Shown here: one piece after another, positions 11,436 to 38,942 of the stretch
Position numbering within the stretch: the stretch's first letter is position 1
Layout: every line of letters starts with the position of its first letter
Source of the DNA: a virus
IMG/VR virus record: IMGVR_UViG_3300047560_000965
Span: 1-40,896 of that record
Strand: one strand, 5' to 3'
DNA length: 40,896 nt
Notes under the pieces: model-generated
The model's input: only the letters and a program-made list of their open reading frames with translations
Databases searched by the model: none
Told to the model about the DNA's origin: nothing
Translations under genes and position numbers: made by a program

Positions 11436-13640
11436 ATGAGTTATATGTTTAGCACTGGTAGGTTACGACCTAACAAGTTACAAGGTAAGAAAGACAAAGA
11501 CTACCACAAAGAATATGCGAAGTTCTGTCTTGCTATTATGAGCAATTACATCTATCGCAGATACATTAACAAGTGCTTAATCAACTGGTCCTTCTTCAAG
11601 GGACAGGATGGACAATGGATCTTCGAAGAAGATATCGAGGCATTCTTCCTTGATGAGTCAGGTGACGTTCGTAACCGACTTAAATGGACAAAGAACGTAA
11701 TCAAGCCAATGGTACAGCAGTACGTTGGTAATGCAATCCGTTTAGCTTATGATGCTCGTGCTAATTGCGTATCTGATTTCGTTATTAACAAAAGAGAACA
11801 AGAATTAAAAGAATTGAAGGCTTGGCAGAATGTTGCTGATTCAGATAAATTCTTAAAAGATTTAATCAAAGAAAAAGTTCCTATTCTTGATACGGAATTA
11901 GAGACAGAAGAATTATTCTACAATACATTCGTTGAGAACTACGAGAAGGATATTAATAATCTTCTTGAATTTATTTCAAACGAAATTAACATTGATGAGT
12001 TAAAAACTCAAATCACACGAAATCTTGCTATCTGTGGACTTGGTATTTACAAAGGATACGAGGCGGGAGAGAATTATGCAGCTGAAGCTATTAACCCACT
12101 ATTCTTTTTGTGGGATATGTCTGCTAAAAAGCCTGACTTAACTGATTCTGAGTTTATGGGTGAGTGGTACTACATGGATACACCTTCTATCTTTGAAAGA
12201 TACCCGCACCTCACAAAAGATGAGCGTGAAGCTATTGAGAACTACTCTAATCACACCAACCAAAACAATATGCACAAGATTGTGAATGGTATTTATACTA
12301 TTCCTGGTGGTAAGGTTCCTACATACGAAATATATTGGAAAGACGTTGAGAGAAGAGAGTACGGATGGGTTATGGATGAGTATGGATATCCTTACTACAC
12401 AATGATAAACAACCCTGACTCTAAATATAAAGATAAAGATCTCATTGAGCCTCAAACTGAAAAGCATAAGGAAGAAATGGGTGGTAAGAAGAAACAGACT
12501 ATTTATGTTGATGTTCTTCGTTATTGCATTATGATCCCTCAAGAGGAGATTGGGTACGGTGACATTGTACTTGAGTACGGTATCTTACCTTATCAGGAAA
12601 AGAATCTTTACGATCCTGCAAATGTAAAATTCCCATACAAGTGTTATACTTGGGTTTATGACCGTGGAGAAGTTTTAACACCACTAGATGACGTTATTGA
12701 TCCTCAAAGATTCCTTAACCGTACTATATCTGTTATCGAGTCTCAGATGGCAAATATGCGTGGTAGCGGTACTGTTATTTCTAAGTCAGCTGTTGACGAT
12801 AGAGATGGCGAAGCGGATATCACAAGAAACATTAACTCATCTAAACCAATCTTCGTAGATACTGACCGTGTTGGATCAGTTCAGAATGCTATTGGTACTT
12901 ATGGTACAAACATTGGCTCTGGTACACTTCAGATGTTCCAAGTTATTCAAGCTGTACAGCAATCTATTCAAGATGTTACAGGCGTGAATGAAGCCATGAC
13001 AGGAACTCAAGGTGGATCTGATGTATTAGTTGGTGTAGTTGAAGCTCAAATTCAGCGTGGATCACTTGTACAAGAACCATTCTACTGGGCACTTACTTCT
13101 ATTTTACGTCAGGCATACGAGCATATGGCTACAGTTGGTAAGGCTATCTATCACGATAATCCACGTAAGTTAGCAATGATGGTTGGTGATGAAGGTTTAT
13201 TTAGAATCGAAATCACTAAAGATCACTTACTTCAAGATTATAGAATCTTTATTAAGCGTTCTGAAACGCCTGAACAAGGAGTTAATGCTGCAAATCAATT
13301 GTTATTTACTTTGCTACAGGCAGGTATGATTGATCAATTAATCTTTGCTAATCTATTCAACCGTGCTACACCTGAGTTAGTTGCTAACGCATTACGTCAG
13401 TATCAACGCGATAAGAAAATGGCTCAACAAGAAGCTGATAAGGCTGCTCAAGAAGGAGCTGTTCAAGGTAGAGCTGCTCAAGCTGATATGTTAGCTCAAG
13501 CTCAACAAGAGCAAGCTGCTCAACAACAGCAAGCTATAGATATGCAAGATAAAGCTCACCAACAAGAACTTGAGAAAGTTGCATTAAAAGAAAATGCTAA
13601 AACAGAAAGAGATATAATTAAAATGCAGGGATTACAATAA
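11436..13640 (+). CDS. Portal protein
   Basis: A 734-aa protein in the expected place for a portal of P22 or crAss-like type, forming the dodecameric ring for DNA passage. The N-terminal half has the wing-like helices (YIYRRYINKCLINWSFFKGQ, KWTKNVIKPMVQQYVGNAIR). The middle shows a clip/stem region with PQRFLNRTISVIESQMANMR, and later QVIQAVQQSIQDVTGVNEAMTG resembles the crown-side helix of P22-family portals. From about residue 660 the tail is a Gln/Ala/Glu-rich coiled coil ending in KMQGLQ, comparable with the long barrel helices of such portals. The length is normal for the family. Confidence 0.85.
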   Translation: MSYMFSTGRLRPNKLQGKKDKDYHKEYAKFCLAIMSNYIYRRYINKCLINWSFFKGQDGQWIFEEDIEAFFLDESGDVRNRLKWTKNVIKPMVQQYVGNAIRLAYDARANCVSDFVINKREQELKELKAWQNVADSDKFLKDLIKEKVPILDTELETEELFYNTFVENYEKDINNLLEFISNEINIDELKTQITRNLAICGLGIYKGYEAGENYAAEAINPLFFLWDMSAKKPDLTDSEFMGEWYYMDTPSIFERYPHLTKDEREAIENYSNHTNQNNMHKIVNGIYTIPGGKVPTYEIYWKDVERREYGWVMDEYGYPYYTMINNPDSKYKDKDLIEPQTEKHKEEMGGKKKQTIYVDVLRYCIMIPQEEIGYGDIVLEYGILPYQEKNLYDPANVKFPYKCYTWVYDRGEVLTPLDDVIDPQRFLNRTISVIESQMANMRGSGTVISKSAVDDRDGEADITRNINSSKPIFVDTDRVGSVQNAIGTYGTNIGSGTLQMFQVIQAVQQSIQDVTGVNEAMTGTQGGSDVLVGVVEAQIQRGSLVQEPFYWALTSILRQAYEHMATVGKAIYHDNPRKLAMMVGDEGLFRIEITKDHLLQDYRIFIKRSETPEQGVNAANQLLFTLLQAGMIDQLIFANLFNRATPELVANALRQYQRDKKMAQQEADKAAQEGAVQGRAAQADMLAQAQQEQAAQQQQAIDMQDKAHQQELEKVALKENAKTERDIIKMQGLQ

Positions 13641-19766: not shown

Positions 19767-22700
19767 ATGCGCCAACAACATCATCCATTAGATAATAAGA
19801 CATATCAAAAAGGTATTAATTCTGATACCAATAATGAGATATTAGGTTCGGCTACAGAGGGAGAACATCTTGATGCGTTGAATATGCGCAGTATGCCAAT
19901 GGATGGTAACAACATGGCAAAGAAAAAGATTAAGGGTGAGGAGATGCTTTTCCCTTTAATTGATAATAGGTGCAATCCTACACCACCTGCTCTTACATTT
20001 ACTGCTTACGAATGTATGATGGCTCAAGAAATCAATGGTCATATCGTAGAGATATGGGCATCTTCTACAGTTGGTGAGCACCCTATTATTCGTGTAGATG
20101 GAGTCATTGTTGCTTACAGCACTGATTTACCATTTGATTTACAGCACCCACTACAATATGACAAGAATGAAAGTTGTGTTGGTGGGGAGTTTTACGTTAC
20201 AAATAATAATACACCACCATTGGTGTTTAACGTAAAAGACTTACTAGATAATTCTACTGGTCCTGATTGCAATGAAAAGTACTTCTCTGAATTCAATTTA
20301 GATATTTACGAGATTCAAGCATCAGCCATACTTTATAAACCTGCCTTCATTAAGCAAGATCCAAGCTCATCAGGCTATGATTATGTTATTGGTGGAACTG
20401 GGCTTCCTGTGGGCAGTTATTCTTATGCCTATCGATTTGTTGATGATCAGGGTGAATATACAGAATGGTCTCCAATTACTGAGTTGATTCCTGTTACTAG
20501 AAACAATAGTCCTGCAAATGGACCTCAGTATCCACATTCAAGAACATTCTCTAGTGAGCCAAATGTAGCATCTCCAACAAACTACGGTAACCACTTAAGA
20601 ATAAGATATCAAAATGACAATCTATTTGCATTTATAGATGTAAGGAGAGATTCATGGTACGCAGGTGATCCAATTGGCACACCTCCTGTTTCTCAAGTTA
20701 TTGCAAGTATTCCTGTTGCTACAGGTATGAATGTAATTGATGTTATGGATAAAGCTCCTGCTGATTTTGATGGTGCTGTTGAGTTAGACGCTGGAGAGCA
20801 AAGCGATACATCATCAAACATTAAAAGAGCTAAATCAATCAGATATTTCAATAGTAGATTGTACCTAATGAACGTAGGTTACGAATCTAAAGATATTGAA
20901 GGTCAAATTCAATTTGTTGACGATACTGTTACGGGTAGATTCCCTGTAATTAAAAATATAGGAAAACCAGGTCATAAGCACGTGTACAACTCAGCTATGT
21001 ACAAAAGCAATATGCGTGGCGAAAGAACAGGTTTTGGAATTGTGTTATTCGACAAGAGTAACAATCCAACATATGCGCTACCTATCCCTAACGCTGAAAA
21101 CTTTGAGTTTCCAAACAGGAGAGATGAGGTAAGTGCAGAAACATTAGACACATCTTACCAAGGATGTGTTTACGCTGCTGATTCAAATGGTAATGTGTCC
21201 TATACCCATGAGGTATTTGATCACTACGATGCTGTCGACAAAGAAGGTCAGGCAGAGGATAAGGATGACGTTGGCTTAATGTACAACTACCACGACAATA
21301 AAACATTCACTAATTGGTGGGAACACGCTAACACTCAAATGAATCCTGTATCTCAATTCGATACAAAGAGTAAACTTAATAAAGCTGTAAACTCATATTC
21401 ATCCGTTCAATCAATTGGTGGAAACGAACTTTATAGACCACAAGGATTTGGATTAAATTATTACGCTCAAGGATTTGGATTTAAGGGAATTAATCTTTGG
21501 CCTAAATGGGCTGATGGATTTTCTGTAGTTCAAACAGAGCCTGCTAAACGAGTTGTTGCTCAAGGTTTAGGATTCTACTCTCTTATTCCTCAAGATGGAA
21601 TTATTGCTACAGTAGAGAAAGAATTGAATTCTTTTTGGTCTTACTTTCCTGATCTAGATATCTTAAATCCTGAGATTGCTGAGGATTTAATTAATAATCC
21701 AAACTCATACAAGATTCAATTGGTTTCTCCTCTTGGATACTTTTCAGAAATTTATAATACTTACAAAGAGGAATTTGACAATAGAAGACAGGGTACTGAT
21801 ATGATTACTTATGCTAGAATCTTAAGAGATAATGCATACCCTAGTGCTTCGGATCAAATAAACCCAGGGATAGGCCCTGAATCAGGTATAGTAGATCCAT
21901 CTGATCCACTTGGATTCTTTAGATATGTTGCATATGGAAGATATACAAACTTTGTAACAGGTGATTCTCCTGCATTCCCTTCGAATGGAAATGGAAACTT
22001 GGAGTTTGCTATTTCAGAAGTTCAAGAAACTACAACGAACTCTACTAGACAATCTTACTTTAAGGTAACATTAGATTCTTCAAATCCAAACGTGTATAAT
22101 GCAGTAAATGGATTGACGGCAATAAACACAAATAACGATGCTGATGAACCTGGTGTAATGGAATGGAGAGAGCCTCTATATGTCATTAACTTGGTTAAAG
22201 ATGTAGACATCAATCAGGGAGTTATTACTGAATACAAATACGGATCTTCATACGTTAAATTCAAGTCATTAGTTCTTGAATCAAATGGAGATGCCAATCA
22301 AAATGCAGTTTTAGTATCTGAAAGATGGGAAGATTGTATTCCTAGAATTGATGGTCAGGTTGCTACAGCTTACGACTCCATAAAGCGATTTGTGTTTATT
22401 GAAGAGCCAAATGGAAACGTCAAGCCTTGGATGAATATTCAATTTGAATCTCCTGCCAATCAAACTACAATACTAAATGGATTAGCTGCTGCCGCTCCGG
22501 GTCCATACAGTGATCCAGTATTGACAAATGGTATTGGAATCTACGGAGTTTACACTAGCACTGAATCAGCAGGTGATGGGGATGGCGTATGCCGTGTATT
22601 CACATTGAACTTCAATGAGATTCCAGGATACAGTTTATTCTCTGTTGTTCCTAAAGATAGAAAAGTTTATGTTAGCTACGACCCTAGAATACCTGTTCAG

Positions 22701-24356
22701 GTTTACGGTGGTGACACTTATATAAATGAATCTATTTGGGCAGCTCTAGATAACAATTATACTAATGATGCCAATCCATCTCAATTAGAAGGTGGTTGGT
22801 TATTCCCTAATAACGAGTTCAAGTTAGACTTACCATTCCCACTTAAGAGATATACATTTGTAGATACATATCCTATTTGGGAAAGAGCAGGAGGTGGTAC
22901 AGGATGGAACTATGATTTTGGATATGACTTCCAATTCTGTGGTGCACTTAAGGCTAACGCTGCATTAATGAGACAAATGATTCTTGTTTGGACAGCAGAA
23001 ACTAGGGTGAACCTATCTTTTGCATTCAACGTAGAACAACCTGACAAAGCAGTAAGCGATCAGTATTACCCTCTAATCAACTATATTCCAAGACCTTACA
23101 AATGGAATGAAAGTGATCCAATGGATGCTGTTCAATTTGCTGACGATAACCATTTGATACCTGGTTATTTTAATGACTATGGTTATGAATGGAACCTGTG
23201 GAACAATGGTGGATTTAGATTCTTGATGAATGACTTTCAGACTAACATTGATTACTCTAAGAGTCAAACAAACAAAAGTTTCTTTACTAAACCATCTGTA
23301 GGTTTCGAGGAACAAACTGATTTCTGTACTAGGATATTGTGGTCACTAAAAAGACCTATCAATTCTCAGAATACTCCTTCAGTAAAAACATATCCTGCTG
23401 CAAATTACTTTGATATCTCTGATGATACAGGTGAGATCAAGTTTGCTTGGTCTGCTATATCAGGTGATAAAGGAAATAACCTTTACGCATTTACAGATAG
23501 CGGTGTTTGTTTATTGCTTGTTGATAAAAGAATTATTCACGAAATTAATGCTAATGAGCTTGCTACTATTGGTTCTGATATTGGCGGTATCCTTAATCAG
23601 CTTTGGATTGACAAGACTATTGGTATGTCTGATGAGACTTGGAGATCTTGGGCTGAATATTCTAATGCTATCTTCTTTGCTAATGGCATATCTGCTTACG
23701 CTTTTTCTGACAATCAATTAACTGAGATTGCTAGAACAGGATTCTTTGAATTGCTAAACCGTAAATTCAATCAGTTGATTGGAGATGGGTACGAAGCTAA
23801 GATGTCAGGTGGATTCAATGTACTTAATAAAGAGTACATCATGAACGTGCAAAACGAAGATGAGTTCAGCACATTAATTTATGGACTTAATCAGAACGCA
23901 CTTCAGTGTCAAAGTTCATACAACTATGACAAATACCTTTACTATAAGAATCACCTATTCGGAATGAAAGGTTCGGGTACTTATGAATTGGGTATTGGAA
24001 ATCAAATAAATGGAGACGATATGCCTGCTTATTTAACAGGTATTTCTGATGCTGAAATTATTGCAGATAAAGAATTTATTCGTATTCGTGTAAACTCAAA
24101 TAGTAAGCCTGAGCAGATTTATTTCTACAAGTCACTTGCTGATTATAAGATTGATGCTTATGATTCTGTAGTTGATGCTAATGCTGTTCCATTAAGCATT
24201 AAGAACTACTTTGGTTACGAGTGTTACATACCAAGATCAATCTACGCTCCTTATGAAAGAAATCAAGGTAGGGTAGTAATATTTAAGATTGTAAGTGCTG
24301 CTGACGAAGACTTTTTAGTTACAAGTACCGCAGTGCAGTACAAGGCTTTAAAATAA
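19767..24356 (+). CDS. Large tail hub/muzzle protein, P22 gp10-like or crAss-like
   Basis: A 1529-aa protein, by far the largest of the tail-assembly group. The N-terminus, NKTYQKGINSDTNNEILG followed by LDALNMR, is the kind of opening seen in P22 gp10-type DNA stabilisation proteins and in the crAss-like muzzle protein. The body is beta-rich with many Tyr/Trp/Asn/Pro, including VGSYSYAYRFVDDQGEYTEW and LWIDKTIGMSDETWRSWAEY, consistent with propeller-like and jelly-roll domains. It lies directly after the ring proteins and small linkers, so it probably plugs the tail and holds packaged DNA. No membrane segment. The size is close to that of crAss-like muzzle proteins as I recall them. Confidence 0.65.
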   Translation: MRQQHHPLDNKTYQKGINSDTNNEILGSATEGEHLDALNMRSMPMDGNNMAKKKIKGEEMLFPLIDNRCNPTPPALTFTAYECMMAQEINGHIVEIWASSTVGEHPIIRVDGVIVAYSTDLPFDLQHPLQYDKNESCVGGEFYVTNNNTPPLVFNVKDLLDNSTGPDCNEKYFSEFNLDIYEIQASAILYKPAFIKQDPSSSGYDYVIGGTGLPVGSYSYAYRFVDDQGEYTEWSPITELIPVTRNNSPANGPQYPHSRTFSSEPNVASPTNYGNHLRIRYQNDNLFAFIDVRRDSWYAGDPIGTPPVSQVIASIPVATGMNVIDVMDKAPADFDGAVELDAGEQSDTSSNIKRAKSIRYFNSRLYLMNVGYESKDIEGQIQFVDDTVTGRFPVIKNIGKPGHKHVYNSAMYKSNMRGERTGFGIVLFDKSNNPTYALPIPNAENFEFPNRRDEVSAETLDTSYQGCVYAADSNGNVSYTHEVFDHYDAVDKEGQAEDKDDVGLMYNYHDNKTFTNWWEHANTQMNPVSQFDTKSKLNKAVNSYSSVQSIGGNELYRPQGFGLNYYAQGFGFKGINLWPKWADGFSVVQTEPAKRVVAQGLGFYSLIPQDGIIATVEKELNSFWSYFPDLDILNPEIAEDLINNPNSYKIQLVSPLGYFSEIYNTYKEEFDNRRQGTDMITYARILRDNAYPSASDQINPGIGPESGIVDPSDPLGFFRYVAYGRYTNFVTGDSPAFPSNGNGNLEFAISEVQETTTNSTRQSYFKVTLDSSNPNVYNAVNGLTAINTNNDADEPGVMEWREPLYVINLVKDVDINQGVITEYKYGSSYVKFKSLVLESNGDANQNAVLVSERWEDCIPRIDGQVATAYDSIKRFVFIEEPNGNVKPWMNIQFESPANQTTILNGLAAAAPGPYSDPVLTNGIGIYGVYTSTESAGDGDGVCRVFTLNFNEIPGYSLFSVVPKDRKVYVSYDPRIPVQVYGGDTYINESIWAALDNNYTNDANPSQLEGGWLFPNNEFKLDLPFPLKRYTFVDTYPIWERAGGGTGWNYDFGYDFQFCGALKANAALMRQMILVWTAETRVNLSFAFNVEQPDKAVSDQYYPLINYIPRPYKWNESDPMDAVQFADDNHLIPGYFNDYGYEWNLWNNGGFRFLMNDFQTNIDYSKSQTNKSFFTKPSVGFEEQTDFCTRILWSLKRPINSQNTPSVKTYPAANYFDISDDTGEIKFAWSAISGDKGNNLYAFTDSGVCLLLVDKRIIHEINANELATIGSDIGGILNQLWIDKTIGMSDETWRSWAEYSNAIFFANGISAYAFSDNQLTEIARTGFFELLNRKFNQLIGDGYEAKMSGGFNVLNKEYIMNVQNEDEFSTLIYGLNQNALQCQSSYNYDKYLYYKNHLFGMKGSGTYELGIGNQINGDDMPAYLTGISDAEIIADKEFIRIRVNSNSKPEQIYFYKSLADYKIDAYDSVVDANAVPLSIKNYFGYECYIPRSIYAPYERNQGRVVIFKIVSAADEDFLVTSTAVQYKALK

Positions 24357-25177: not shown

Positions 25178-27676
25178 ATGGCTAAACAGAGAAAAGGTAT
25201 ATCAAAAGCTTTAAGACAAGGAAAAGTAGAGTCTGCATATCAGATGCCGGAAGGTGATGTTGATGAATCAGGTTTTGGATCTCCAAAAACAAATGTAGAG
25301 CCTAATGGTTTATTTATAGGTAAAGAAGGTGCAGCCATTTCTGCTATTACTAATCCAGTTTCAAAGGTTTTAGGTCAAATAGAAAATTCAAATCCAGCTG
25401 CATCAGTTTCTAATTCAGTAACTAAAGAAGCTGTTGACAATGCTGAATCAATATCTGATTTAACTAAAGTTCCTACACTTGTAAATCAAATCAATAAAGA
25501 GACTCAAAGTGTAAAGGATCAATTAGATGATCAAACTTTAAATACATTATCTGCTTATAGTCTTTCTGAAGACCCAACAGATGATGCTGCTTGGGGCAAG
25601 CCTAAGGATGCTGTGGAACAGGTAAATCCTATGGAGCAAGTTAATGCGTATACGTTCCCTGAAGGTGAAGTTGATGATTCGGCATACGGTCAACCTAAGG
25701 ATCAAATTCAAGCAACTGAAGAAATTGTTCCAGGAAGCGGTCAGGTTATATCAAGGGTAGTTTCTGATGAAAGTCTTCAAGGTCAAAGGCCTGCATACAC
25801 ACAATTAGCAACGAAAAATGATGTTACTAATCAATTAGCGCAAATATACTCTGCAATGTCTCAGAATTTACCTGGTGCTGTTGTGGAGAAGCTTGGCATT
25901 CAGGATTATTATCCAAGCGCATCTAGGGATATTGCTGTAGGTACATTCAGTGGTAGTAGAATTGGTAGTCAGACTATTTATTCTGGTACTGGAGGATTAT
26001 TACCTATGGGTCTATATGATGCTCGTAAACGTGCTATTTCAGAAGCGGCAAAAGCAAAACAAGCTGAGTTAGATAAAATACTTTCTATTCCTGAGACAAC
26101 TCCTCAGTTCATGGAGCCATTTAATGAATATGCTGTAAATACATTATATCAAGACTTAGCAAGAACAGGTTTTAATCCAAGTGCATACAATAAAGATTTA
26201 CAAGCTCAAAGAAATAAATATAAACTTCAGGCAACTGCTAAAAATTTAACCTACATGACATCTAGAGCTAAAGATTTATTAGCTACTACCGTAGGTAAGG
26301 ATGGTAAGCCAGGTGCTTATATGCCTGAAGATATGAAGCAAGAATTAACTGACTTCTTAACAGGTATGGTTGAGAATCCAGAAGATTATTTCAGTGGTAA
26401 GAAAAATTTATCCGACATTACCAATAACACCAAGATTTATGCTGATGGTACTGTTTGGGTTGATGGTATGATTAAACAGTGGACCGAAAAGCCAACTGAG
26501 GTACCTGTTAATCTAAAAACTGGGCAGCCATTAAATGAAAATCAGCTTCAAGAGCTTAATGGGGCGCTTGATGGATACTTACAAGCTGTTCAAGATGGAT
26601 CTAGAGATACAGATTCATACATGACCATGATTAAGAAGTATTATGATATTGACGAAGACATTGTAAATAAATGGATGGATAGTCAGGGTTATTCTGGAGA
26701 TGACAAGATGAGGGAAACTCTGAAAGATTATTTGAGATATCAGATACCTGCCGCATCATTCGTTCAGTCAATTAAAACTAGCGCAAATCAAAATGTTGCA
26801 AGAGCTAGACTTCAATTAGATAGGGATAAATTTAATTATCAAAAAGAATCTGACAAAGAATCATTCTGGGGCACAATTAACGCCAATCTAAATGATGCAG
26901 TCAACACTAGAACAGGTAAAACATTCAACCAAGAACTTGCTGCGCTTCAAGCTAGCGGTCTTAAAGGAGAAGCTCTTGATAATGCAATTAAGAATGTTTG
27001 GAATAACTACTCTTTTGCAGCAGGGACTAAATTGGTAAAAAATAAGAATGGATCATACGTGGTTCAGATGCCTTCTACGGAAACTCAATCTAAGAGCATT
27101 ACATCTAAGGATGTCTATGTTAATGGTAAGCCAGTTAGAGTTATGGCGGTGCAATATTACGATAAGGATAAAAAACAATGGATTGATGCTAACTTAACAC
27201 CTCAACAAATTGCTGATAGCAAAAAGAATATTAGGGTAGCTGAAAGTAAGCAAATGTTTACTGATGAGCAAAAAGCAGCATTAGGTAAATCAGGTTCTTC
27301 AATATACACAAAAGTTGTTGCTCATCAGATTCAAAAAGGATTCTACAATGATCAAGGTCAATTTGAACCGTTAACTGCTAATAACTTAGCTAGATACAAT
27401 AGAAGTAATAGAAAGGCAACTCTTCAGAGAACTGTTGAGCAACCATACTCTAGAGGAGAGCAGTACGACAAGACTGGAGCAAAAGTTAATTACGTAGAAA
27501 CCATACTTCCTGGTCAGGTTGTTGGTGCTTGGTCTAGAATTGATGATCCTGCTGGTCAGCAGTTATTGGATGAGCAAGCTGGATACACTACTAAGCAATC
27601 TGCCGAAGCACAAGGTGCTCCTGACTCATATTCAGGATCTGGCGAATCAGGAGGAGTTGTCATTGCTCAACAATGA
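25178..27676 (+). CDS. Internal/ejection protein with repeated linear motif, 832 aa
   Basis: A large, hydrophilic, mostly helical protein starting one base after the preceding stop. Three copies of a 19-residue motif occur in the disordered N-terminus: AYQMPEGDVDESGFGSPKT (20-38), AYSLSEDPTDDAAWGKPKD (126-144) and AYTFPEGEVDDSAYGQPKD (157-175). The rest has long helical stretches and no recognised enzyme motif. The end (SYSGSGESGGVVIAQQ) is flexible. Neighbours suggest cargo or ejection function. Its equivalent in known phages cannot be named. Confidence 0.6.
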   Translation: MAKQRKGISKALRQGKVESAYQMPEGDVDESGFGSPKTNVEPNGLFIGKEGAAISAITNPVSKVLGQIENSNPAASVSNSVTKEAVDNAESISDLTKVPTLVNQINKETQSVKDQLDDQTLNTLSAYSLSEDPTDDAAWGKPKDAVEQVNPMEQVNAYTFPEGEVDDSAYGQPKDQIQATEEIVPGSGQVISRVVSDESLQGQRPAYTQLATKNDVTNQLAQIYSAMSQNLPGAVVEKLGIQDYYPSASRDIAVGTFSGSRIGSQTIYSGTGGLLPMGLYDARKRAISEAAKAKQAELDKILSIPETTPQFMEPFNEYAVNTLYQDLARTGFNPSAYNKDLQAQRNKYKLQATAKNLTYMTSRAKDLLATTVGKDGKPGAYMPEDMKQELTDFLTGMVENPEDYFSGKKNLSDITNNTKIYADGTVWVDGMIKQWTEKPTEVPVNLKTGQPLNENQLQELNGALDGYLQAVQDGSRDTDSYMTMIKKYYDIDEDIVNKWMDSQGYSGDDKMRETLKDYLRYQIPAASFVQSIKTSANQNVARARLQLDRDKFNYQKESDKESFWGTINANLNDAVNTRTGKTFNQELAALQASGLKGEALDNAIKNVWNNYSFAAGTKLVKNKNGSYVVQMPSTETQSKSITSKDVYVNGKPVRVMAVQYYDKDKKQWIDANLTPQQIADSKKNIRVAESKQMFTDEQKAALGKSGSSIYTKVVAHQIQKGFYNDQGQFEPLTANNLARYNRSNRKATLQRTVEQPYSRGEQYDKTGAKVNYVETILPGQVVGAWSRIDDPAGQQLLDEQAGYTTKQSAEAQGAPDSYSGSGESGGVVIAQQ

Positions 27677-27718: not shown

Positions 27719-30700
27719 ATGGCTCAAGATTTTATGTCTACACAAACAGGTGGTGTTGGTGAAACTATCCAAGCAAAATCTAATGTAGACGTTAGTCCGG
27801 AGCAGTTTTCTGCTAAATTACCGGTTCAGGCTGAGTCAGCTCCTCAACCTCAAGAACAGCAAGTTCAACAGCCACAGGTTCAACAGGAGGTTCCAGTTGA
27901 AAGTGTTCAAGAAGTACAAGTTCAACAAGCTGAGGCTCCACAACAAGTTGCAGAACAGCCTACAGAGCAAGTAACTGAACAGGTTACTACTCAGGTATCA
28001 GATACACTAGATGTTGCTAATGATAGTGAAAACGTCACGTTGTCAGATATGACTACGGATGGTGATGTCATTATTGATCCAGCGGCTGAACAGAAAGCAG
28101 AGGTAAAAGATGTAGAGGTTGATCCTGATACTGAAATAGAATACGATGAGCCTACTTCAGATACGACTACTGATGGTGAAGTAATCTTAGGAACTAATCA
28201 AGAAACCGATGAGAATCTAACCGAAGGTTACAGTCCTGCTGTAAGCGTTAAGCTAAAAGGAAGTAGAGTACTTATTGATAAAGCCAAAGGAGATCCTGAT
28301 CCTAAAAAGAATCCACCAAAGAAAGATGGATACTATAAGATTCCTGGATCTGATGCTGTATTCAAAAAAGAAGGTGGTACTTGGTATAAGTCTACAAATG
28401 GTGGAGATAGTTATTTTAGACTAACCAATGGAGACGTAGAAAAGAGAGTTGCATACATTGAGAGTTCTGCTGTAAAGTTCAATGATAAGAATCTTAAGAG
28501 CACTTCTCAAGTTGTAAACCCAAGACAAGGTAACTTAGGTAAATTTAATTTATCTAATCAAGCTGTAACAATGGGTGGTAATCCTGTTGTTTCTAAAAAC
28601 ATTGCTTTTACAGATCTTACAAAACCAAAGATTGGTTCTGAGACTGATAAATATAATAAGGATGGAACTGTAAACTTTAATTACAATCCAAACGTAGCTA
28701 GAATGTCTCCTGAGACAAAGGCTGTATACGATGCGTCTAAAAAGAAATTAGACAATGGGTTATACAAGTTTCCGGGTAGAGAAGAGGCTTTATTCAAGAA
28801 AGAAAATGGTCAATGGTATGTTGACGATTCAGGATCTGGTAAGAAATTTACAAAGGTAACAGGTGAGAATCTTGATGCTAGGCTTAAGAACTTAGAAGCT
28901 AGAGCTATTCCTACTACGGCAGGAGCTGTTGTTCTATCTAGATCAATTGAAAAACCAATTACTCCTAATACAAATGTTTCTGATGCATTGTCTTTTGTTG
29001 ATGATGTGAAGTCAATGACTCCTAAGATTGAAGAAACAAATAATCAATTAAAGGATGCTTTTGAAGAAGGTAAAAACTTTACCGAGACAGAGATATTAAA
29101 CTATGCTCAAGATAAGCTTACGATGGATCAAAAAGAATACTTAGTTGGTATTCAGAATGACATCAAGCAAATATTAGGGGATGGATCTTATAGCGAATTA
29201 AAGGCTCAAAAGATAGCAGATTTATTATCTAGCGGTGAGCAGTACTTTAATGACGCTGTAAATGCAAATGACATAATTAACAAGGCTTACTCAGCTGGAA
29301 TTAGCGTTGACAGATTAAATTATGAGAATAAAAAGAAATCTTTTCAAACGGACTTTGATCAAAAGTCAATGTCTCCTGCTGATCAGTTTGCTGCTAGGAC
29401 ATTCAATGAGGTTAGATTTATGTCTGACTTTATTTTGGAAAATGTTGATGAAGGTAATATATCTATAGATCCAAAGACTGGAGAATTTTCATACACAAAA
29501 AATGCTTCTCCTTTAGAGATTGAATATATTGAAAAGAAGCTTGCTGAAAATCTACAGCGATACAATCAAATAATGTCAGAGAGATTTGCTGAATCAAAGG
29601 AAATGATTTCCAATGATAAAAGTTCTGCCTCTGATATTAAGAATGAAATTGAAAGTTTGCAGTATCAGTTAGGTGCAGCAAAAAGAAAAAATGATGCCAA
29701 CCTTGCTTCTGCATTATCTGCTGAAATCAATAGTAAAAAGCAAGAACTTGATACAATTGAAAAAAGGATATACGATAACGAGAACTTAACAAATACTCTT
29801 TTTCTTACCAATCCTAAAAAGATATTAAACAATGTTGCAGGTCTAGAAACTGAAACGGCTAGATTAGCTTTTGATGCTTTACCTAAAGGATTGAATTCAA
29901 AACAAAAGTTTGATTTATATTATCAAAACTTACAGAAGAAGAATCAGGAGTTAGCCACTAGGAATAAGATTGATTACGCATCTATGGATCGCATAATCAT
30001 GAGAACAAAGGATTTATTAGATTGGAAAGATTTATACTCATTATCTAAAGCAGAGCAAGAGTACTTAAAAAATAAAGCTACTCTGAATGCTTTAAAGCCA
30101 CTTTACTATAACAATGATACAGGATTTACAGCTCAAGGAACTGGATTCTGGGATTCATTAATAAATGGATATGCTAAGGCATTGACTCCTACTATGTCTG
30201 CTGCCGATGGCTATCAATCAGAGAATGAAAAAGCTCAGATCATAAGCCAAACAATGAAAGATCAGGGGTTTAATCCTGATAGCTTTGTTACTCCTGATGC
30301 TCTTGATAAGATTCAAGAAAAAACAAATGTTGACTTCTGGAGTCCACAATCCTTTGCAGAAATGACTGGTACATCATTGGCTTATATGTCAATGGTTATG
30401 TTGGCTTCTGAGGCTCCCGGAACAATGCTTAAAGGATTGGTAAATGCAGAGAAGTTAATTACAGGAGCAAATACAATTACCAAAGCCGAGAAGTATGCAA
30501 AAGGATTAAATGATGCGTACAATGCAGCTATGAGCACAACTAAGCTTGGTAGATTCCTTAAGCCAATAGCTCAAGAAGCTGTTAACTTTGAAATTGCCGG
30601 AGATATTTTTAATGATCCAGATAATCAATTAAATCTAATCTCAGGTGCTACAGGTGGTGTTTTTGGAGAAGCATTTTCTGTTGCTGCTAATAAGATGGGG

Positions 30701-31828
30701 GCAACAAAAGTATTCAACTATGTTTACAATATATTTGGAAGCAATGCTAATGTAGCTCTTAACACCTTAGCTAAAGCAGGTAAAATGGCTTCTCGTGGAT
30801 TTGGTGAGGTTCCTAGTGAGTTAGGCGAAGAGTTAGCAGGAATATACGTTAACTCGGATAACTTCCAAGAGATGATTGCTGCTGCTCAAGAATCATTTGG
30901 AACTATAGATAAGATACAGCAATTTGTAATATCTTCTATTATATTAGGTACTGCATTCGGTGTAGCTCAAGGCAATACTGCTAAAGAAGCTATGGATGCT
31001 ATGCCTGAAGAAAAAAGAAATCAGGTTAACGCAGTCTTGAACCAATTAAGACAAGACATTAATAAAGGAAAAGGTGCTGCTTCTGATTATGCTCAATCAA
31101 TGTTAAATAAAGAGGAAGCTCAAAATAAAATCAATAAAGATGATCAAGAAGACCAGCAAAGGGTATCAAGTGAAGTCGGAGAAGGGGAAAAACCTGTCGA
31201 AGAACAACCTGTCTCTAAACCAAGCGAAGAAACGCCTAGCCCTAGTGGAATGGTTCAAGGAGAACAAGGGAAAGTTACAGAAGAAGTAACTCCTACAGAA
31301 ACTAAAGTAACTGAAGAGGTAGTCGAAAAACCTCAAATGACAGATCAGGAAATATCTAGTAAGATATCCGAAGCTGTAGAAAGTAACCAAGGGCTTGCTG
31401 ATAAATTAAAGTCAACACTTGGATCTAAAATAGGTGATGGAACCAAACTAAAAGGACCTAAGACTCAAAAGATTTCCAAGGGCATGAAGAATGCAGGCTT
31501 TGACGTTGAAGAGGTTGTGTCTATGTACAATCAAGCAAAGCAGGATGGATCTAATCCTCAATTAGTTGCTGAGGTCGAGAAGATAATAATGCCTAACACA
31601 GAAACTACTGCTGATGTAGAAAGGGCAATGGAAATTCAATCATTGAATATGTTTGATGAGATTTCAACCATATCATCGATTAGAAACTTGTCAAAGAAAA
31701 ATGATGCAATTAAAGAATTTGAGCAAAGAACAGGCCAGTCTTTTAAGAGAGTTTCAAAAATAGAGCGTAACTTTGATAATATAACTAGAGCTCTGAAGAA
31801 GAGCAACTTAATAAATATAGATTGTTAA
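27719..31828 (+). CDS. Very large internal/ejection protein, 1369 aa
   Basis: Residues 1-100 are Gln/Val/Pro-rich and disordered. TTDG(D/E)VI occurs twice (about 112 and 150). A small domain of about 50 residues is duplicated: DGYYKIPGSDAVFKKEGGTW onwards (203-251) and NGLYKFPGREEALFKKENGQ onwards (346-396). Long coiled-coil helices follow (about 520-800). Two hydrophobic stretches (TSLAYMSMVMLASEAPGTML and FVISSIILGTAFGVA) could insert in a membrane. After a Glu/Thr-rich linker comes a basic C-terminal region. The size and layout resemble the giant internal virion proteins of podoviruses. No enzyme domain is recognised. Confidence 0.65.
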   Translation: MAQDFMSTQTGGVGETIQAKSNVDVSPEQFSAKLPVQAESAPQPQEQQVQQPQVQQEVPVESVQEVQVQQAEAPQQVAEQPTEQVTEQVTTQVSDTLDVANDSENVTLSDMTTDGDVIIDPAAEQKAEVKDVEVDPDTEIEYDEPTSDTTTDGEVILGTNQETDENLTEGYSPAVSVKLKGSRVLIDKAKGDPDPKKNPPKKDGYYKIPGSDAVFKKEGGTWYKSTNGGDSYFRLTNGDVEKRVAYIESSAVKFNDKNLKSTSQVVNPRQGNLGKFNLSNQAVTMGGNPVVSKNIAFTDLTKPKIGSETDKYNKDGTVNFNYNPNVARMSPETKAVYDASKKKLDNGLYKFPGREEALFKKENGQWYVDDSGSGKKFTKVTGENLDARLKNLEARAIPTTAGAVVLSRSIEKPITPNTNVSDALSFVDDVKSMTPKIEETNNQLKDAFEEGKNFTETEILNYAQDKLTMDQKEYLVGIQNDIKQILGDGSYSELKAQKIADLLSSGEQYFNDAVNANDIINKAYSAGISVDRLNYENKKKSFQTDFDQKSMSPADQFAARTFNEVRFMSDFILENVDEGNISIDPKTGEFSYTKNASPLEIEYIEKKLAENLQRYNQIMSERFAESKEMISNDKSSASDIKNEIESLQYQLGAAKRKNDANLASALSAEINSKKQELDTIEKRIYDNENLTNTLFLTNPKKILNNVAGLETETARLAFDALPKGLNSKQKFDLYYQNLQKKNQELATRNKIDYASMDRIIMRTKDLLDWKDLYSLSKAEQEYLKNKATLNALKPLYYNNDTGFTAQGTGFWDSLINGYAKALTPTMSAADGYQSENEKAQIISQTMKDQGFNPDSFVTPDALDKIQEKTNVDFWSPQSFAEMTGTSLAYMSMVMLASEAPGTMLKGLVNAEKLITGANTITKAEKYAKGLNDAYNAAMSTTKLGRFLKPIAQEAVNFEIAGDIFNDPDNQLNLISGATGGVFGEAFSVAANKMGATKVFNYVYNIFGSNANVALNTLAKAGKMASRGFGEVPSELGEELAGIYVNSDNFQEMIAAAQESFGTIDKIQQFVISSIILGTAFGVAQGNTAKEAMDAMPEEKRNQVNAVLNQLRQDINKGKGAASDYAQSMLNKEEAQNKINKDDQEDQQRVSSEVGEGEKPVEEQPVSKPSEETPSPSGMVQGEQGKVTEEVTPTETKVTEEVVEKPQMTDQEISSKISEAVESNQGLADKLKSTLGSKIGDGTKLKGPKTQKISKGMKNAGFDVEEVVSMYNQAKQDGSNPQLVAEVEKIIMPNTETTADVERAMEIQSLNMFDEISTISSIRNLSKKNDAIKEFEQRTGQSFKRVSKIERNFDNITRALKKSNLINIDC

Positions 31829-31829
31829 T

Positions 31830-32297
31830 ATGAAAAAACTACTTACAGATCAGGAAGTTGAAATGATCAATGCACTTGGTCATGAAGAGCTAAAGGCTAG
31901 TCACACTTATTTGCACTTATCTAACAGCATGAAGACAATTGGATTCTTTGGTGCTGAGAAATTCTTTTTAGAAGAGTCTAACAGTGAGCGCGAGCATTTT
32001 GGTAAGCTTGAAGCTTTTATGAACGATATGAATGAGCAGATTGAAGTTGGTGCTTTAGACGCTGTTTCTGTAGATGTCGAAGATTTAATGGAGGCATTTG
32101 AGTTAGCAATTGAAATGGAAATGGATTTACTTGGTAAATACGAAGATGCATACAAAAAGGCTAGTCCTAAGATGCAAGCTTTGATTCACCATTTTTTAGA
32201 AATACAAACTGAAAGCGTTGGCGAGTACGGTGATTTAATTGCACGCTTAAGCAGAACCAATGAACCTATTTTCATCGATCAAGAACTAGCAAAATAA
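31830..32297 (+). CDS. Ferritin (non-heme, FtnA-like)
   Basis: A complete four-helix ferritin of 155 aa. The diiron centre lines up with E. coli FtnA: E20 and Y27 in helix A, E53-x-x-H56 in helix B, E97 in helix C, and E128/E132 in helix D (the usual Gln between them is replaced by Ser129). The C-terminus IFIDQELAK matches the FIDKEL ending of bacterial ferritins. Family proteins oxidise Fe(II) and store iron in 24-subunit shells. The gene starts one base after the 1369-aa ejection protein stop and ends one base before the 1449-aa gene, so it is made late with virion proteins. It could be virion cargo or an intracellular iron/peroxide buffer. Confidence 0.92.
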   Translation: MKKLLTDQEVEMINALGHEELKASHTYLHLSNSMKTIGFFGAEKFFLEESNSEREHFGKLEAFMNDMNEQIEVGALDAVSVDVEDLMEAFELAIEMEMDLLGKYEDAYKKASPKMQALIHHFLEIQTESVGEYGDLIARLSRTNEPIFIDQELAK

Positions 32298-32298
32298 C

Positions 32299-35200
32299 AT
32301 GGCTAAAAAACCCTGTAAATACCAATTACCAGGTCAAGACACTTGGATGTCAGAGGCTGAATTTAAGAAAGCACTTAATGATGGACTTTTAGATAAATTC
32401 TTCATTGAGTCTGGAATATCTATTCCTGCTTTAAGAGGATTCAAACCAGAATCTGCTAGAGCTGAATCATACAATCTTAAAGGAAGTAAGTTTGGCAATA
32501 TGGGTCAAAGCCCTGAATTAAAGTCAAGTGGATTCAATCCTAACGACAATCTATTCTCTAAACCTGAATTAGCTCAAAATACAAGCTTTGGATGGAGAAC
32601 AATGGGAACTGATGAATTTAACTTATTAGCATCTGGAGAAAAGAAATATGAAGGTGGCGCACCAAAAGGTGGTAATTGGATTTCAGGCATTCCTGAGTCT
32701 TCTTCTAAATTCGGTGGAGAAGGCAAGGTTATGGTTGAATTTGGAGGCATTGATATCAAAGGTGGAGAAAATATGTCTGCCGGATCTAGTGCTGATAGAA
32801 ACAACGTAACAAAGGTTTGGAAATACAATTCTGATACAAAACAATTTGAAGAAGCACCTGAGTTATTAGACTCTATTAAGAATGGTTCTAAATTAGAAGC
32901 AGAAAGTGTTTCCTCTACGGAAAAAGAAATGTCTTCAGTTCAAAATAAACTTGATGATATTTATGACAATAAGATGCCTGACCTGGAAGAAAGGCTTAAG
33001 AAGACAAAAGATGAATATGGTATGTTCGCTAATGGACATAGCTTAGAGTCTATAGATAAACAAAGAGAACTTCTTAAATCAGAAGGTATTGAATTAAACG
33101 ATTATCTTTCTGATGAACAAAAATCCATTATTGATGAGATGGAATCTCTTCAAAATGAAGCTGATAAATTAGAAGATAGAATATCAGATTTAGATGAATT
33201 AGACGATGCAGATAAATCTAAAAAACCAAAATCATACGAAGCATTAGCTGAAAAGATTAGAAATGGTAAAATTGACACTAAGGGTATGGCAATGTCATCC
33301 CTTCCTGGTTTTACAGAAGCTTGGAATGCCTCAGTAGAGGCTGCCGCTAAAGCTGTTGAAGCCGCAGGTGCTACAGTTGATGCTGTACAAAAAGGTATTG
33401 CTGCTGCACAGGCCGAATTCAAAAAGACTGATTTCTACAAATCTCTTAAAGATAGAGCTGAGAAGAAGCGATATATGGATGATTTAACTCGTGGCATTGA
33501 GATGTCCTTGAATGAAGAAAAACTTACCGGAAAACAAAAGAAAGCAGGTAAGGAATTCAAAGGTAAGGTTGATGAAGCTACTGGCGTAACTCGCGAGGAT
33601 AAAATTGTCCAAATTAAAGAGATGGATTTACTCAAGAGAGATATACGCTCAAGAGTAAAAGCATCTAAAGACGCTGAAAAAGCATTACAAGCGATTAAAG
33701 AAGAAATCAAAAAATTCATCAAGGATACGCTTCCTAAGGAGCAGTATTCTAGAACAGAAGTGAACTATTTAATTAATGCCGTTAATAGAGCTAAAAATGA
33801 AGCTACATTAGATAGGGCAATAGATAAAGTTTCTGAATTAGTTCAAAGAAAAAATGAGCAAATCAGAAAGAAAAAAGTAAAAGAAGTCATTGGCAAAATT
33901 AAAAACAGCAAGACTTTATATTCTAAAGTTGACGGCAAGAAAAAAGGTAAGGTTACAGTAGAAGCTCAGAAAGAATTCTATGACTTCGTAGGCACTTTAT
34001 CTGACATAGAGTCAATGTCAATGGAAGAACTTAATGAGGTTAGCGACATTATAGATGGCATCGTAGAAACAGGTAAGGCTGATCTTAAGAATTTGAAGAA
34101 AATTCAAGATGATATCAAAATGAGAAATGCTGCCGATATGCTAGAAGAATTAGCTGGAAAGCCTGATGCTATATTAAGCGATAACGAAGCTGTTTCAACT
34201 TTCTTTGAGGGTCAGGGTGGGTACGTGATTATTGATGGTAAGATGTACAATAAGAGTTCTTACAACTCTAGTCCATACAATAAGAATGTAGATCCTGAAC
34301 CTATACCTGGTCCTGCAAAAGGATACACCAAGGTAAACATGAGTGAGAAAAAAAGAATCATCTCAGAGAAGAAAGGTAGAGCTGCAAGATTAAAAGAATC
34401 CATAAAAAGATCAGGAATACTTGATAACATATATGGATACTTCCAAGTAATTGGCAAAGGAGCACCTAAGACAGCTAAATTCATTAAAGAGAATATATCT
34501 CAACCTATTAAAGATTACTTTGTTGATGTTGAGAATTCATTCAAGGAAAAAGCAGATAGATATTTTGAAGGTCTAAATGAAATCTTTGGAAGTAAAGATG
34601 CTGCTCAAAAAAGATTAACAGCTGATGCTGATATTAATCCACTAAGAGAAAGTAGAAAGCAAGGAGTTCCTGTGTCTAATTCAGTTCTTGTCTCATTGTA
34701 CAATATGTCAAGACTAGAGAATGGAATGAGTAGACTTGAGAAATCAGGTGTAGATGCTCAGGATCTAGTTGATTACATTGAATCAAATCAAGATTTAAAA
34801 GACTATGCTAACTTCTTAGTTGAGCAATACGAAAGCTTCAAATCTGATTACGAGCCTACTTTTATAGCAGTAAATAATATGCCATTCCCAGAAGGCTACT
34901 ACTACCCTGCTTATGCTGATGCTAATTTTGATGATGACACATTTAGTGAAGGCGATATATTTGATGCTGACAATAACTTCTTGGCGTTAAATGCAATGAC
35001 AAATAACTTGAAGCAAAAGACTGGTTATCAAGGTGCGTTTAACACTTCAATGGGTGCTGAGGAAATATTCTTTGACTATATCAAAAATATGGAAAGAGCC
35101 AAGTATTTGATTCCTGTAGCTAAGGCTGCAAATCAATTATTTGCTCAACAAAACAGACCATACATTCTTGACAAAATGACAGCTCAAGATTTGTCTGATC

Positions 35201-36648
35201 TTCAAACTCAATTAGGAATTATTCTTACAGGTAAAAGACCTATTAAGAAAAGAGGCGAAGCAGTTATGGATGATTTTATGAATTATAACTCATTAACAAC
35301 TCTTGGATTCAAATTAAAGTCCTTACCTACTCAGTTAGTTTCATTTACCAACTTCTGGGGTCAAGGAATTGAAGACGGAATTAGCCCTAAGCAAATTATA
35401 ACCGCATTCCCTAAAACTAAAGCGGAGTGGGAATTCTATAAGGACGTTTTCTTTAGTGAGTACTTAAAAGAACGTAGAACAGGTAAGAACCTTGACCTAG
35501 AATTAAAGCGATTATTTGATGAATCTAAAAAAGGAAATTCTGCTAAATGGTGGTCTAAAGTTTCTAGAGTAGCTATGGCTGTAGCTGGTAACGCTGACTT
35601 CTTAGCTAACGTGTCTCCACTTGGTGGAGGTGGATCATATGCCATTGCAAGATATAGAGATGCATTGGCTCAAGGAATGGGCGAAGCTGAAGCTAAAGAC
35701 TATGCATTTAAGAAATTCGTTGAGGGCGTAGAAGAAACACAGCAAACATCTAGAGAAGATTACGTTTCTAGCTTCCAAAGAGCTACTATCGGTAGGATGC
35801 TTAGTTCTTACAAATCATCACAAATTGGTGGTGCTAGAAAAATAGTTAAAGGTTTCAGAACATTGACTAATGAATCTTCAACAGATAAACAGAAAGTTCA
35901 AGCTTACTACGATATAGTTTATTACTCTGTTCTTAGTAGCATTCTATTCAACTTAATCTCTAATGCGGGTTATGCCGTATTTAAGAAAGATGATGACGAA
36001 CAAGAGTTTGATGAAGAAACAAGAGTAGGATACGACTTGTTTGTTGACCAAGTACAGTCTACGCTACAAGGATTTGGAGTACCTGGGTTTATCGTAGATG
36101 GAATCATAAATGCCGCTAGGGGAGATGAATGGAAAAACAATGTTCCATTAACTCAATTCTTCAATACAATAATGAGTACAGGCGGTGCAGTTATTGAGGC
36201 TTTATCTAAAGATGATTGGAACAAAGACATCGATACTAAAGAAAGAGAAAGATTCCTTGAGGAAATTGGAGATGAGAAGAACCTCACATATAGTCAAGAG
36301 GAATACCTTAAATTAATGGAGCTATATGAAAATGCATCAATATGGAGAAAGATGACTCCTAAGCAAAGAAAAGATGCTCTTAAAGTTTTAGGCGTTAAGA
36401 ACTTGGTTAAGCAAGCTGAAGATTTCGCAGAATACTATAAAGGTAACAAGTCGTTTATTGATGCATTTATGGGTTACGAGAAGGATTACTTTGAGTATGC
36501 TAAAGCAAGAAATAAAAAAGACTACATATTTAAAAATATATTTGGAGAGGATTATATTCCAAAAGAAACACCAGGAAATAAAAAACCTACATACGAGCCA
36601 GAGATGAAGGAAGACCTTAAAAGTACTGAAACAGAAGAGAACTGGTAA
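32299..36648 (+). CDS. Giant internal virion protein, possible ART-like N-terminus
   Basis: 1449 aa. Near residues 95-155 the sequence GWRTMGTDEFNLLASGE, KGGNWISGIP, SSKFGGEGKVMVEFGG has the spacing of an ADP-ribosyltransferase-like fold (R-x-M, a GxW(I/F)S turn, a final V-x-V-E-F strand), though catalysis cannot be judged. Long charged coiled coils follow (about 210-700). The C-terminal third has FMNYNSLTTLGFKLKSLPTQ, a WWSKVSRVAMAVAGNADF helix and a hydrophobic stretch (IVYYSVLSSILFNLISNAGY), as in very large polyvalent phage virion proteins that enter the host. It probably is ejected with DNA. Names beyond that are unsafe. Confidence 0.6.
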   Translation: MAKKPCKYQLPGQDTWMSEAEFKKALNDGLLDKFFIESGISIPALRGFKPESARAESYNLKGSKFGNMGQSPELKSSGFNPNDNLFSKPELAQNTSFGWRTMGTDEFNLLASGEKKYEGGAPKGGNWISGIPESSSKFGGEGKVMVEFGGIDIKGGENMSAGSSADRNNVTKVWKYNSDTKQFEEAPELLDSIKNGSKLEAESVSSTEKEMSSVQNKLDDIYDNKMPDLEERLKKTKDEYGMFANGHSLESIDKQRELLKSEGIELNDYLSDEQKSIIDEMESLQNEADKLEDRISDLDELDDADKSKKPKSYEALAEKIRNGKIDTKGMAMSSLPGFTEAWNASVEAAAKAVEAAGATVDAVQKGIAAAQAEFKKTDFYKSLKDRAEKKRYMDDLTRGIEMSLNEEKLTGKQKKAGKEFKGKVDEATGVTREDKIVQIKEMDLLKRDIRSRVKASKDAEKALQAIKEEIKKFIKDTLPKEQYSRTEVNYLINAVNRAKNEATLDRAIDKVSELVQRKNEQIRKKKVKEVIGKIKNSKTLYSKVDGKKKGKVTVEAQKEFYDFVGTLSDIESMSMEELNEVSDIIDGIVETGKADLKNLKKIQDDIKMRNAADMLEELAGKPDAILSDNEAVSTFFEGQGGYVIIDGKMYNKSSYNSSPYNKNVDPEPIPGPAKGYTKVNMSEKKRIISEKKGRAARLKESIKRSGILDNIYGYFQVIGKGAPKTAKFIKENISQPIKDYFVDVENSFKEKADRYFEGLNEIFGSKDAAQKRLTADADINPLRESRKQGVPVSNSVLVSLYNMSRLENGMSRLEKSGVDAQDLVDYIESNQDLKDYANFLVEQYESFKSDYEPTFIAVNNMPFPEGYYYPAYADANFDDDTFSEGDIFDADNNFLALNAMTNNLKQKTGYQGAFNTSMGAEEIFFDYIKNMERAKYLIPVAKAANQLFAQQNRPYILDKMTAQDLSDLQTQLGIILTGKRPIKKRGEAVMDDFMNYNSLTTLGFKLKSLPTQLVSFTNFWGQGIEDGISPKQIITAFPKTKAEWEFYKDVFFSEYLKERRTGKNLDLELKRLFDESKKGNSAKWWSKVSRVAMAVAGNADFLANVSPLGGGGSYAIARYRDALAQGMGEAEAKDYAFKKFVEGVEETQQTSREDYVSSFQRATIGRMLSSYKSSQIGGARKIVKGFRTLTNESSTDKQKVQAYYDIVYYSVLSSILFNLISNAGYAVFKKDDDEQEFDEETRVGYDLFVDQVQSTLQGFGVPGFIVDGIINAARGDEWKNNVPLTQFFNTIMSTGGAVIEALSKDDWNKDIDTKERERFLEEIGDEKNLTYSQEEYLKLMELYENASIWRKMTPKQRKDALKVLGVKNLVKQAEDFAEYYKGNKSFIDAFMGYEKDYFEYAKARNKKDYIFKNIFGEDYIPKETPGNKKPTYEPEMKEDLKSTETEENW

Positions 36649-38387: not shown

Positions 38388-38390
38388 GAT

Positions 38391-38942
38391 ATGAGCTGTA
38401 CAAACTGCGGAAGTAAAAGTTGTTCTTGCTCGGATAATTGTCCGAATAAGACTTCTGACATCACTGTATTTGATGGTCAACTAAATGTATTAGAAGTTCC
38501 GTGTGGTGCTTCTCTAAACGATATTCTAACTTTGCTTGAATCTTACACCACTAATATGGTGAATGAATTGAGCGGTATGACTAGCGTAACTATTGGTGAA
38601 ACTTGTTTATCATTAGCTCCTGGTACATACTCTGTTCAGCAAGTATTTGATGCTGTAATCACTGCGTTATGTGAGACATCAGTAGGTCAGGTTTACGTTG
38701 ATATCACTCAAACTACATCTAACACGTTATTAGCTACCCCATCAGGCGGTGTTGCTCCATACACTTACTTCTGGAAGATTCAAGACTCTAGAGTTGAGGT
38801 AACTACTACAGGGCCAACAATGAACGCTAGTGTATTACTAAATGCAGTTGCTGACTCAGGTGATGCTCTAGTTAAATGTACTGTTACAGATGCTACAGGA
38901 AGAAAAGCAAGTGATTGCTTCTACATAAGAATTACTTTTTAA
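38391..38942 (+). CDS. Cys-rich N-terminus plus Ig/PKD-like domain, 183 aa
   Basis: The first 22 residues carry five Cys (MSCTNCGSKSCSCSDNC). A middle segment with EVPCGASLNDILTLLESYTT is helical and may oligomerise. The C-terminal 85 residues form a likely Ig/PKD-type beta-sandwich: ATPSGGVAPYTYFWKIQDS is the classic PKD-like PxGGxxPYxYxW pattern, closing with DALVKCTVTDATGRKASDCF. Such domains decorate phage tails and bind surfaces. It starts three bases after protein B and belongs to the same operon. It is probably a surface-exposed tail protein. Confidence 0.65.
   Translation: MSCTNCGSKSCSCSDNCPNKTSDITVFDGQLNVLEVPCGASLNDILTLLESYTTNMVNELSGMTSVTIGETCLSLAPGTYSVQQVFDAVITALCETSVGQVYVDITQTTSNTLLATPSGGVAPYTYFWKIQDSRVEVTTTGPTMNASVLLNAVADSGDALVKCTVTDATGRKASDCFYIRITF

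Follow-up and report, generated by a model that had tools for sequence, protein, structure and literature searches.

Ferritin encoded between giant cargo genes, with cysteines at the facing ends of the two giant proteins, is found in several distant phage lineages and suggests that an iron and thiol step takes part in the assembly of the virion or the release of its contents. The analysis started from the window, a whole stretch of viral DNA of 40,896 bases that is nearly identical to another IMG/VR contig (L001) and belongs with related contigs reaching about 65 kb. The ferritin family itself is known; its recurrent place at a joint of cargo proteins is new, and no report of a ferritin between giant cargo genes was found in the literature collection searched on the ferrojan horse and on phage ferritin. 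The cysteine pattern of the giants may be a larger result than the placement of the ferritin.

The ferritin and its ferroxidase site

The product of the 155-aa ORF at positions 31830 to 32297 (plus strand, ATG to TAA) is a true ferritin, in agreement with the initial annotation, which had claimed a complete ferritin gene there. The Pfam profile Ferritin (PF00210) matches it with 62.5 bits against a gathering score of 24.5 (E 5e-17), its sequence matches in the PDB are ferritins (best E 3.6e-10), and the AlphaFold2 model, with a mean pLDDT of 94.4, consists of four long helices (residues 7-37, 40-66, 86-110 and 113-141) and a short fifth one (146-153). The best 50 Foldseek matches in the PDB are all ferritins (TMq 0.88-0.94), the best of them being 24-mer ferritins (TM 0.93), with those of E. 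coli, Archaeoglobus, Helicobacter and Vibrio at TMq about 0.9. A Dps protein, which is a 12-mer without the C-terminal fifth helix, was rejected, since the fifth helix is predicted and no Dps occurs among these 50 matches. The comparison with FtnA and Dps that had been proposed at the outset thus gave a ferritin fold with a fifth helix (TMq about 0.93) and an intact site.

The site was compared in an alignment of E. coli FtnA with 36 phage ferritins (that of the window and 35 others). The ligands first listed for the window protein held in part: E20, E53, H56 and E97, together with Y27, are equivalent to FtnA E17, E50, H53, E94 and Y24, and Q126, which had been overlooked, is equivalent to Q127. 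All six residues are invariant in the phage ferritins (36/36), in contrast to EcFtnB in the same alignment, where two of the ferroxidase ligands are absent. E128 and E132, also listed, did not hold: position 128 is Glu in 13 of the 36, and E132, invariant in the phage ferritins but aligned to FtnA L133, corresponds to no FtnA ligand, so that an FtnA-type site with these two residues is ruled out by the alignment. The FtnA subtype was likewise rejected, its third-iron C-site (E49, E126, E129, E130) not being kept: none of the 36 phage ferritins has E49, E126 or E130 (in their places stand S/D/G/T, I/H/L/K/F and A/S, respectively), and in most of them E129 has also given way, to mixed residues. 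The ending FIDQEL was correctly likened to bacterial FtnA, in which FIDKEL corresponds to it. Since the third-iron site of FtnA is lost, the phage site is read as H-chain-like, resembling that of animal H chains; in the PDB ranking for the window ferritin, animal and other H-type ferritins come first.

Among clade members, the dN/dS of the ferritin is 0.06-0.11 where estimable, which corresponds to purifying selection. The gene is therefore not a decaying host gene, and a stray origin of this kind was rejected on the same values and on the conservation of the site in 36/36 sequences. The invariant catalytic site, taken with this selection, suggests that the window gene encodes a catalytically competent ferritin of the ferroxidase type (H-type); that it forms a cage, oxidises Fe(II) and so works as a ferroxidase is predicted from the sequence. 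A search for a cellular sister of the phage ferritins gave weak plasmid matches only, and no match was obtained in annotated phage records with three diverse phage ferritins as queries (E<=0.01 to 0.1).

The ferritin locus in the window and in other phages

In the window, the ferritin gene is separated by one base on each side from its neighbours, an upstream giant of 1369 aa (27719..31828, plus strand) and a downstream giant of 1449 aa (32299..36648, plus strand), as the initial annotation had stated. Its assignment to the late structural genes fits a gene that is co-directional with the giant late genes and tightly packed between them, and the term ejection-protein operon is reasonable, given that the crassvirus genes gp45, gp47 and gp50, at the equivalent place, are virion cargo by mass spectrometry (PMC10172136). 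In ferritin-less relatives, fused giants run parallel to both proteins: their residues 5-1220 correspond collinearly to the upstream giant, and their C-terminal part to residues 315-1428 of the downstream giant. Domain searches of the giants found almost nothing; the AlphaFold2 model of residues 315-1434 of the window's downstream giant is poor (pLDDT 64), with no PDB match at E<=0.001. An identity of these giants with the crass RNA polymerase was rejected, there being no profile match beyond the leader described below and no DxDxD motif. No iron-dependent enzyme was recognised adjoining the ferritin gene. Three proteins encoded after the downstream giant (36700-38942) are very cysteine-rich (15/249, 20/312 and 10/183 residues), unlike the giants.

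The gene order of the window (terminase, portal, capsid, several tail proteins of 240-260 aa, proteins of 1529, 264 and 832 aa, giants) parallels that of crAss001 by position rather than by sequence. The 1529-aa protein (19767..24356, plus strand) stands where crassviruses have the muzzle protein gp44, and the 832-aa protein (25178..27676, plus strand; 91 kDa, no cysteine) where they have the cargo protein gp45, in both cases by position only and with no detectable sequence match. The portal protein (734 aa; 11436..13640, plus strand) is a distant relative of crassvirus portals (phrog_6547, E 1e-36; profile against crAss001 gp20, E 5e-12). The capsid protein gave no profile match to the crAss001 capsid gp32 and no capsid match in a phage search, the terminase weakly matched T4-like phages (tblastn), and the remaining window genes, apart from the portal, had no detectable match in crAss001. 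The window phage thus appears to be crass-related by its portal and gene order alone, a crass-type capsid and terminase not being found. Two scans of genome contigs for a host gave no match.

When related phages were searched, as had been proposed, the position of the ferritin was found to be kept and its sequence not to be decaying. In the window's clade of about 65-kb phages the gene lies between giants in nearly all cases, and a position between giants is seen across L001-L009 and L012-L036, most of the viral contigs compared being fragments. Of 27 portal-bearing records, 14 have a ferritin. The ferritin-less portal-bearing records with a complete locus (G007, G015, G018 and G019) encode both giants as one ORF, of 2930, 2815, 2580 and 2710 aa, respectively. 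Over their full length, the fused giants in G007 and G015 can be aligned to the 1369-aa (1-1201) and 1449-aa (315-1428) proteins of the window, whereas those of G018 and G019, which give no such alignment, were assigned by gene order; the split between the giants is located in a variable linker. In L023 the ferritin lies one gene upstream of an unsplit giant, and in L024 one gene upstream of a split one. The latter (L024:10576-19670) is split without terminal cysteines or tags, which may reflect a frameshift or an error of assembly, or be a genuine exception.

A second group (L026-L036) is Crassvirales-like, 57-91 kb where long, with terminase, portal and capsid of the crass type in G028, the member on which PHROG matching was run (phrog_6681, 1e-84; phrog_6547, 4e-108; phrog_11589, 9e-65). 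Here the next gene after the ferritin is that of the virion RNA polymerase, or the part of it that encodes the C-terminal half. The whole polymerase gene lies downstream in L027, L029, L030, L033 and L034 (for L029, PDB 6vr4 at E 1.5e-33 and profile against crAss001 gp50 at E 3e-157), and in this subgroup the gene before the ferritin is gp47-like (E 1e-25). In L026, L028, L035 and L036 the polymerase is split in two at the ferritin: relative to gp32 of Flavobacterium phage Fpv3, the upstream giant extends to residue ~2885 and the downstream one starts from ~2898, while in Fpv3 one virion structural protein of 4287 aa covers both halves and no ferritin is detectable. In L026 (L026:10486-17922, residues ~1938-2395), and likewise in L028 and L035, the polymerase polypeptide includes a superfamily-1 helicase (AAA_30, UvrD_C_2) as a fusion within its C-terminal part. 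A third lineage (L183, L184, L198 and L200) carries a more diverged ferritin in an equivalent kind of place; in L200 a putative GIY-YIG-like homing endonuclease ORF of 190 aa (L200:4442-5014) lies between the upstream giant and the ferritin and overlaps the ferritin start.

The collection scans gave 37 genuine loci with the leader, and in 32 of these the ferritin is the gene immediately before it. The other five (L170-L173 and L176) have none there, and none was found elsewhere in those contigs. Given these ferritin-less joints and the joint-less ferritins of L023 and L024, ferritin and joint are separable, and the ferritin was rejected on these grounds as a strict cause of the split of the giants.

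Terminal tags and lone cysteines of the giant proteins

Two short conserved segments face each other across the ferritin. The N-terminal leader of the downstream giant (32299..32433, plus strand, about 45 residues; CxY...W.SE.EFK..L..GLLD), which includes Cys6 (codon 32314-32316), is common to otherwise different proteins of all lineages, crass-like virion RNA polymerase polypeptides among them, and is all that the window giants share with the crass polymerases. A leader profile built from the window clade alone picked up the corresponding segments in the other lineages, with E values from 1e-11 to 2e-3; the only other matches below E 1 were two short partial ones, in L157 and L158 (an unrelated 166-aa ORF fetched by the scan itself). 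The C-terminal tail of the upstream giant (31736..31825, plus strand, last 30 residues; NF..IV..L...[ED]C) is conserved among ferritin-bearing phages and ends in Cys1369 (codon 31823-31825). The clade-1 tail profile matched the tails of other lineages weakly (E 0.04-1.2), and 11 of the 12 sub-threshold matches were exactly those tails; the associated hypergeometric figure, which assumes 20 positives and ignores relatedness, is no more than indicative. Both tags are absent beside the ferritin in L023 and L024, and tail and leader persist in the ferritin-less L170-L173 and L176.

The 1369-aa giant of the window has one cysteine, its last residue, and the 1449-aa giant has one, at residue 6. The pattern extends to all the giants compared (26 upstream and 26 downstream, some proteins being partial and some rows near-duplicates): every upstream giant has a cysteine at the last or next-to-last residue (the sole one in 21), and every downstream giant has one at residue 3-6, with few others save a second, far-end cysteine in the crass-like phages. 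The fused giants of G007, G015, G018, G019 and L023 contain no cysteine, and in fused polymerases the internal cysteine pair is absent at the fused point. L024, split without terminal cysteines, is a clear exception. The pattern is not shown by the further structural proteins compared from the window and crAss001, except for the window capsid protein, which has a cysteine near its C-end. A summed probability for the pattern treats lineages as independent and is no more than indicative.

Cultured and annotated crassviruses were examined after the cysteine idea was formed and were not used in forming it. In Cellulophaga phage phi14:2, cysteines stand at residue 1797 (the last) of gp67, residues 3 and 2179 (of 2180) of gp66 and residue 3 of gp65; in crAss001, at residue 2339 (of 2341) of gp47, residues 5 and 2404 (of 2412) of gp50 and residue 5 of gp49, which gives the order gp47-C, C-gp50-C, C-gp49. 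Fpv3 has Cys4286 (of 4287) in gp32 and Cys3 in gp33, and the facing ends of DAC15, crAss002, jaberico, cr126_1, ZA and cr1_1 carry cysteines, for crAss002 and ZA given an internal Met start (MSC). The RNA polymerase gene starts of crAss002 (L202:9088) and crAssphage ZA (L205:8668) are probably placed too far upstream. Thioredoxin-annotated genes occur near the cargo block of gut crassviruses (crAssphage ZA, L205, 23115-23408 and 24125-24394; L203, 23240-23515) and might handle thiol joints. In the papers searched, no mention of terminal cysteines in these proteins was found.

A proposed thiol-linked cargo chain and its relation to known systems

Because facing lone cysteines recur at separate giants and are absent at fused ones, a head-to-tail, thiol-linked train of cargo proteins is inferred. 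The reading that we prefer is that an H-type ferritin is made late with the giant virion cargo proteins and encoded at their joint (in several lineages the first one), where the facing cysteines would link the giants and the ferritin would be an accessory; it is held tentatively, at somewhat below an even chance. As a fairly likely step, each giant would be linked through these cysteines to the next one in a head-to-tail order, the simplest link being a disulfide (a metal-thiolate being a possible alternative chemistry), so that cargo chains could be packed, threaded out in order and separated in the reducing cytoplasm of the host. As a less likely step, the ferritin, made in step with the giants and either enclosed with them in the particle or attached close to the joint, would take up and oxidise Fe(II) there. 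It might in this way protect the joint, the DNA and the polymerase or ejection machinery against iron, peroxide and Fenton damage, or set the redox state of the joint. The bacterial cytosol is unfavourable to disulfides, and such bonds would therefore need late formation or the released particle. In crAss001, gp45, gp46, gp47, gp49 and gp50 are present in virions by mass spectrometry, and disulfides stabilise tail proteins (PMC10172136), so that virion disulfides have a precedent there; phi14:2 gp65-gp67 are annotated from MS/MS in the record. Against a tie of the ferritin to the joint count the joints without ferritin in L170-L173, L176, crAss001, phi14:2 and DAC15, from which it follows that the ferritin is not needed for the joint; L023 and L024, keeping it with no tail or leader beside it, indicate that it is valuable without one. 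The more general proposal, that in crassviruses and related phages the giant cargo including the RNA polymerase forms a head-to-tail chain through single terminal cysteines, freed by host reduction, and that some lineages package a joint-encoded ferritin controlling iron or redox there, is doubtful, and we give it a low probability.

The ferritin might instead act outside the particle, as a late soluble helper in the dying host that sequesters iron and limits oxidative damage during assembly, its place among cargo genes giving late expression. The complete ferroxidase site and the selected ferritins of L023 and L024, away from a joint, favour this role, and both the Dps and Mn-catalase genes carried by gut Bacteroidetes phages (PMC8008677) and ferritin in giant viruses (PMC7136201) have been read in the same way; an ordinary auxiliary gene, however, has no need to occupy the same joint in three lineages with little else in common, nor to stand immediately in front of the leader at 32 of the 37 loci that have one, and we regard this role as rather unlikely. 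That the ferritin is a mere passenger, which stayed in one of the insert-tolerant gaps between separately translated giants and has a role unrelated to its neighbours, is quite improbable in view of the strong purifying selection, the site conserved in 36/36 sequences and the lack of any other recurrent gene at this place among the loci fetched, even though the endonuclease-like ORF of L200 (190 aa, putative) is such an insertion and joints without ferritin exist. A structural hub, in which the ferritin cage would hold together one giant's C-terminal tail and the next giant's N-terminal leader, would explain why these segments flank the ferritin on both sides and are conserved in giants that otherwise diverge; yet tail and leader persist without ferritin in L170-L173 and L176, ferritin persists without tags in L023 and L024, and invariant catalytic residues are superfluous for a pure scaffold, which makes the hub very improbable.

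A chain through single terminal cysteines, if true, would explain in a simple and testable way how crassviruses, among the most abundant viruses of the human gut, accommodate several very large proteins in the capsid and drive them one after another through a narrow tail, and it predicts that specific peptides are cross-linked. With a ferritin encoded at the joint, iron chemistry would have a part in virion assembly or entry, and the debate over iron in phage particles would have a concrete gene to turn to.

An analogy is offered by the docking domains of polyketide synthases and by split inteins, terminal tags that rejoin consecutive large polypeptides; the short C- and N-terminal tags of the phage giants would likewise reconnect successive giant polypeptides, with the difference that each carries one lone cysteine. 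With animal H-chain ferritin and FtnA, the phage ferritin shares the four-helix bundle with a short fifth helix and the ligands E, E, H, E and Q with a conserved Tyr, but it lacks the third-iron (C) site of FtnA, is about 20% identical to solved ferritins and is encoded between giant genes in a phage structural region. Two phage ferritins in BFVD, A0A8D9C9X5 (uncultured marine phage) and A0A8S5Q7U4 (Siphoviridae sp. ctrzs15), have the same fold (TMq 0.86-0.91) at 18-24% identity. The Dps and Mn-catalase proteins of gut Bacteroidetes phages are also phage-encoded members of the ferritin superfamily, with a presumed action on iron or reactive oxygen, but they belong to other families, and no fixed place between giant cargo genes has been reported for them (Benler et al. 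2021, PMC8008677). The closest parallel in layout is the Crassvirales cargo block (crAss001 gp45-gp50; phi14:2 gp65-gp71), in which portal, capsid and tail are likewise followed by very large cargo genes with lone terminal cysteines; its cultured members examined gave no ferritin match and its polymerases share with the window giants, which have no DxDxD motif, the leader only, whereas in crass-like relatives the ferritin lies within the block itself.
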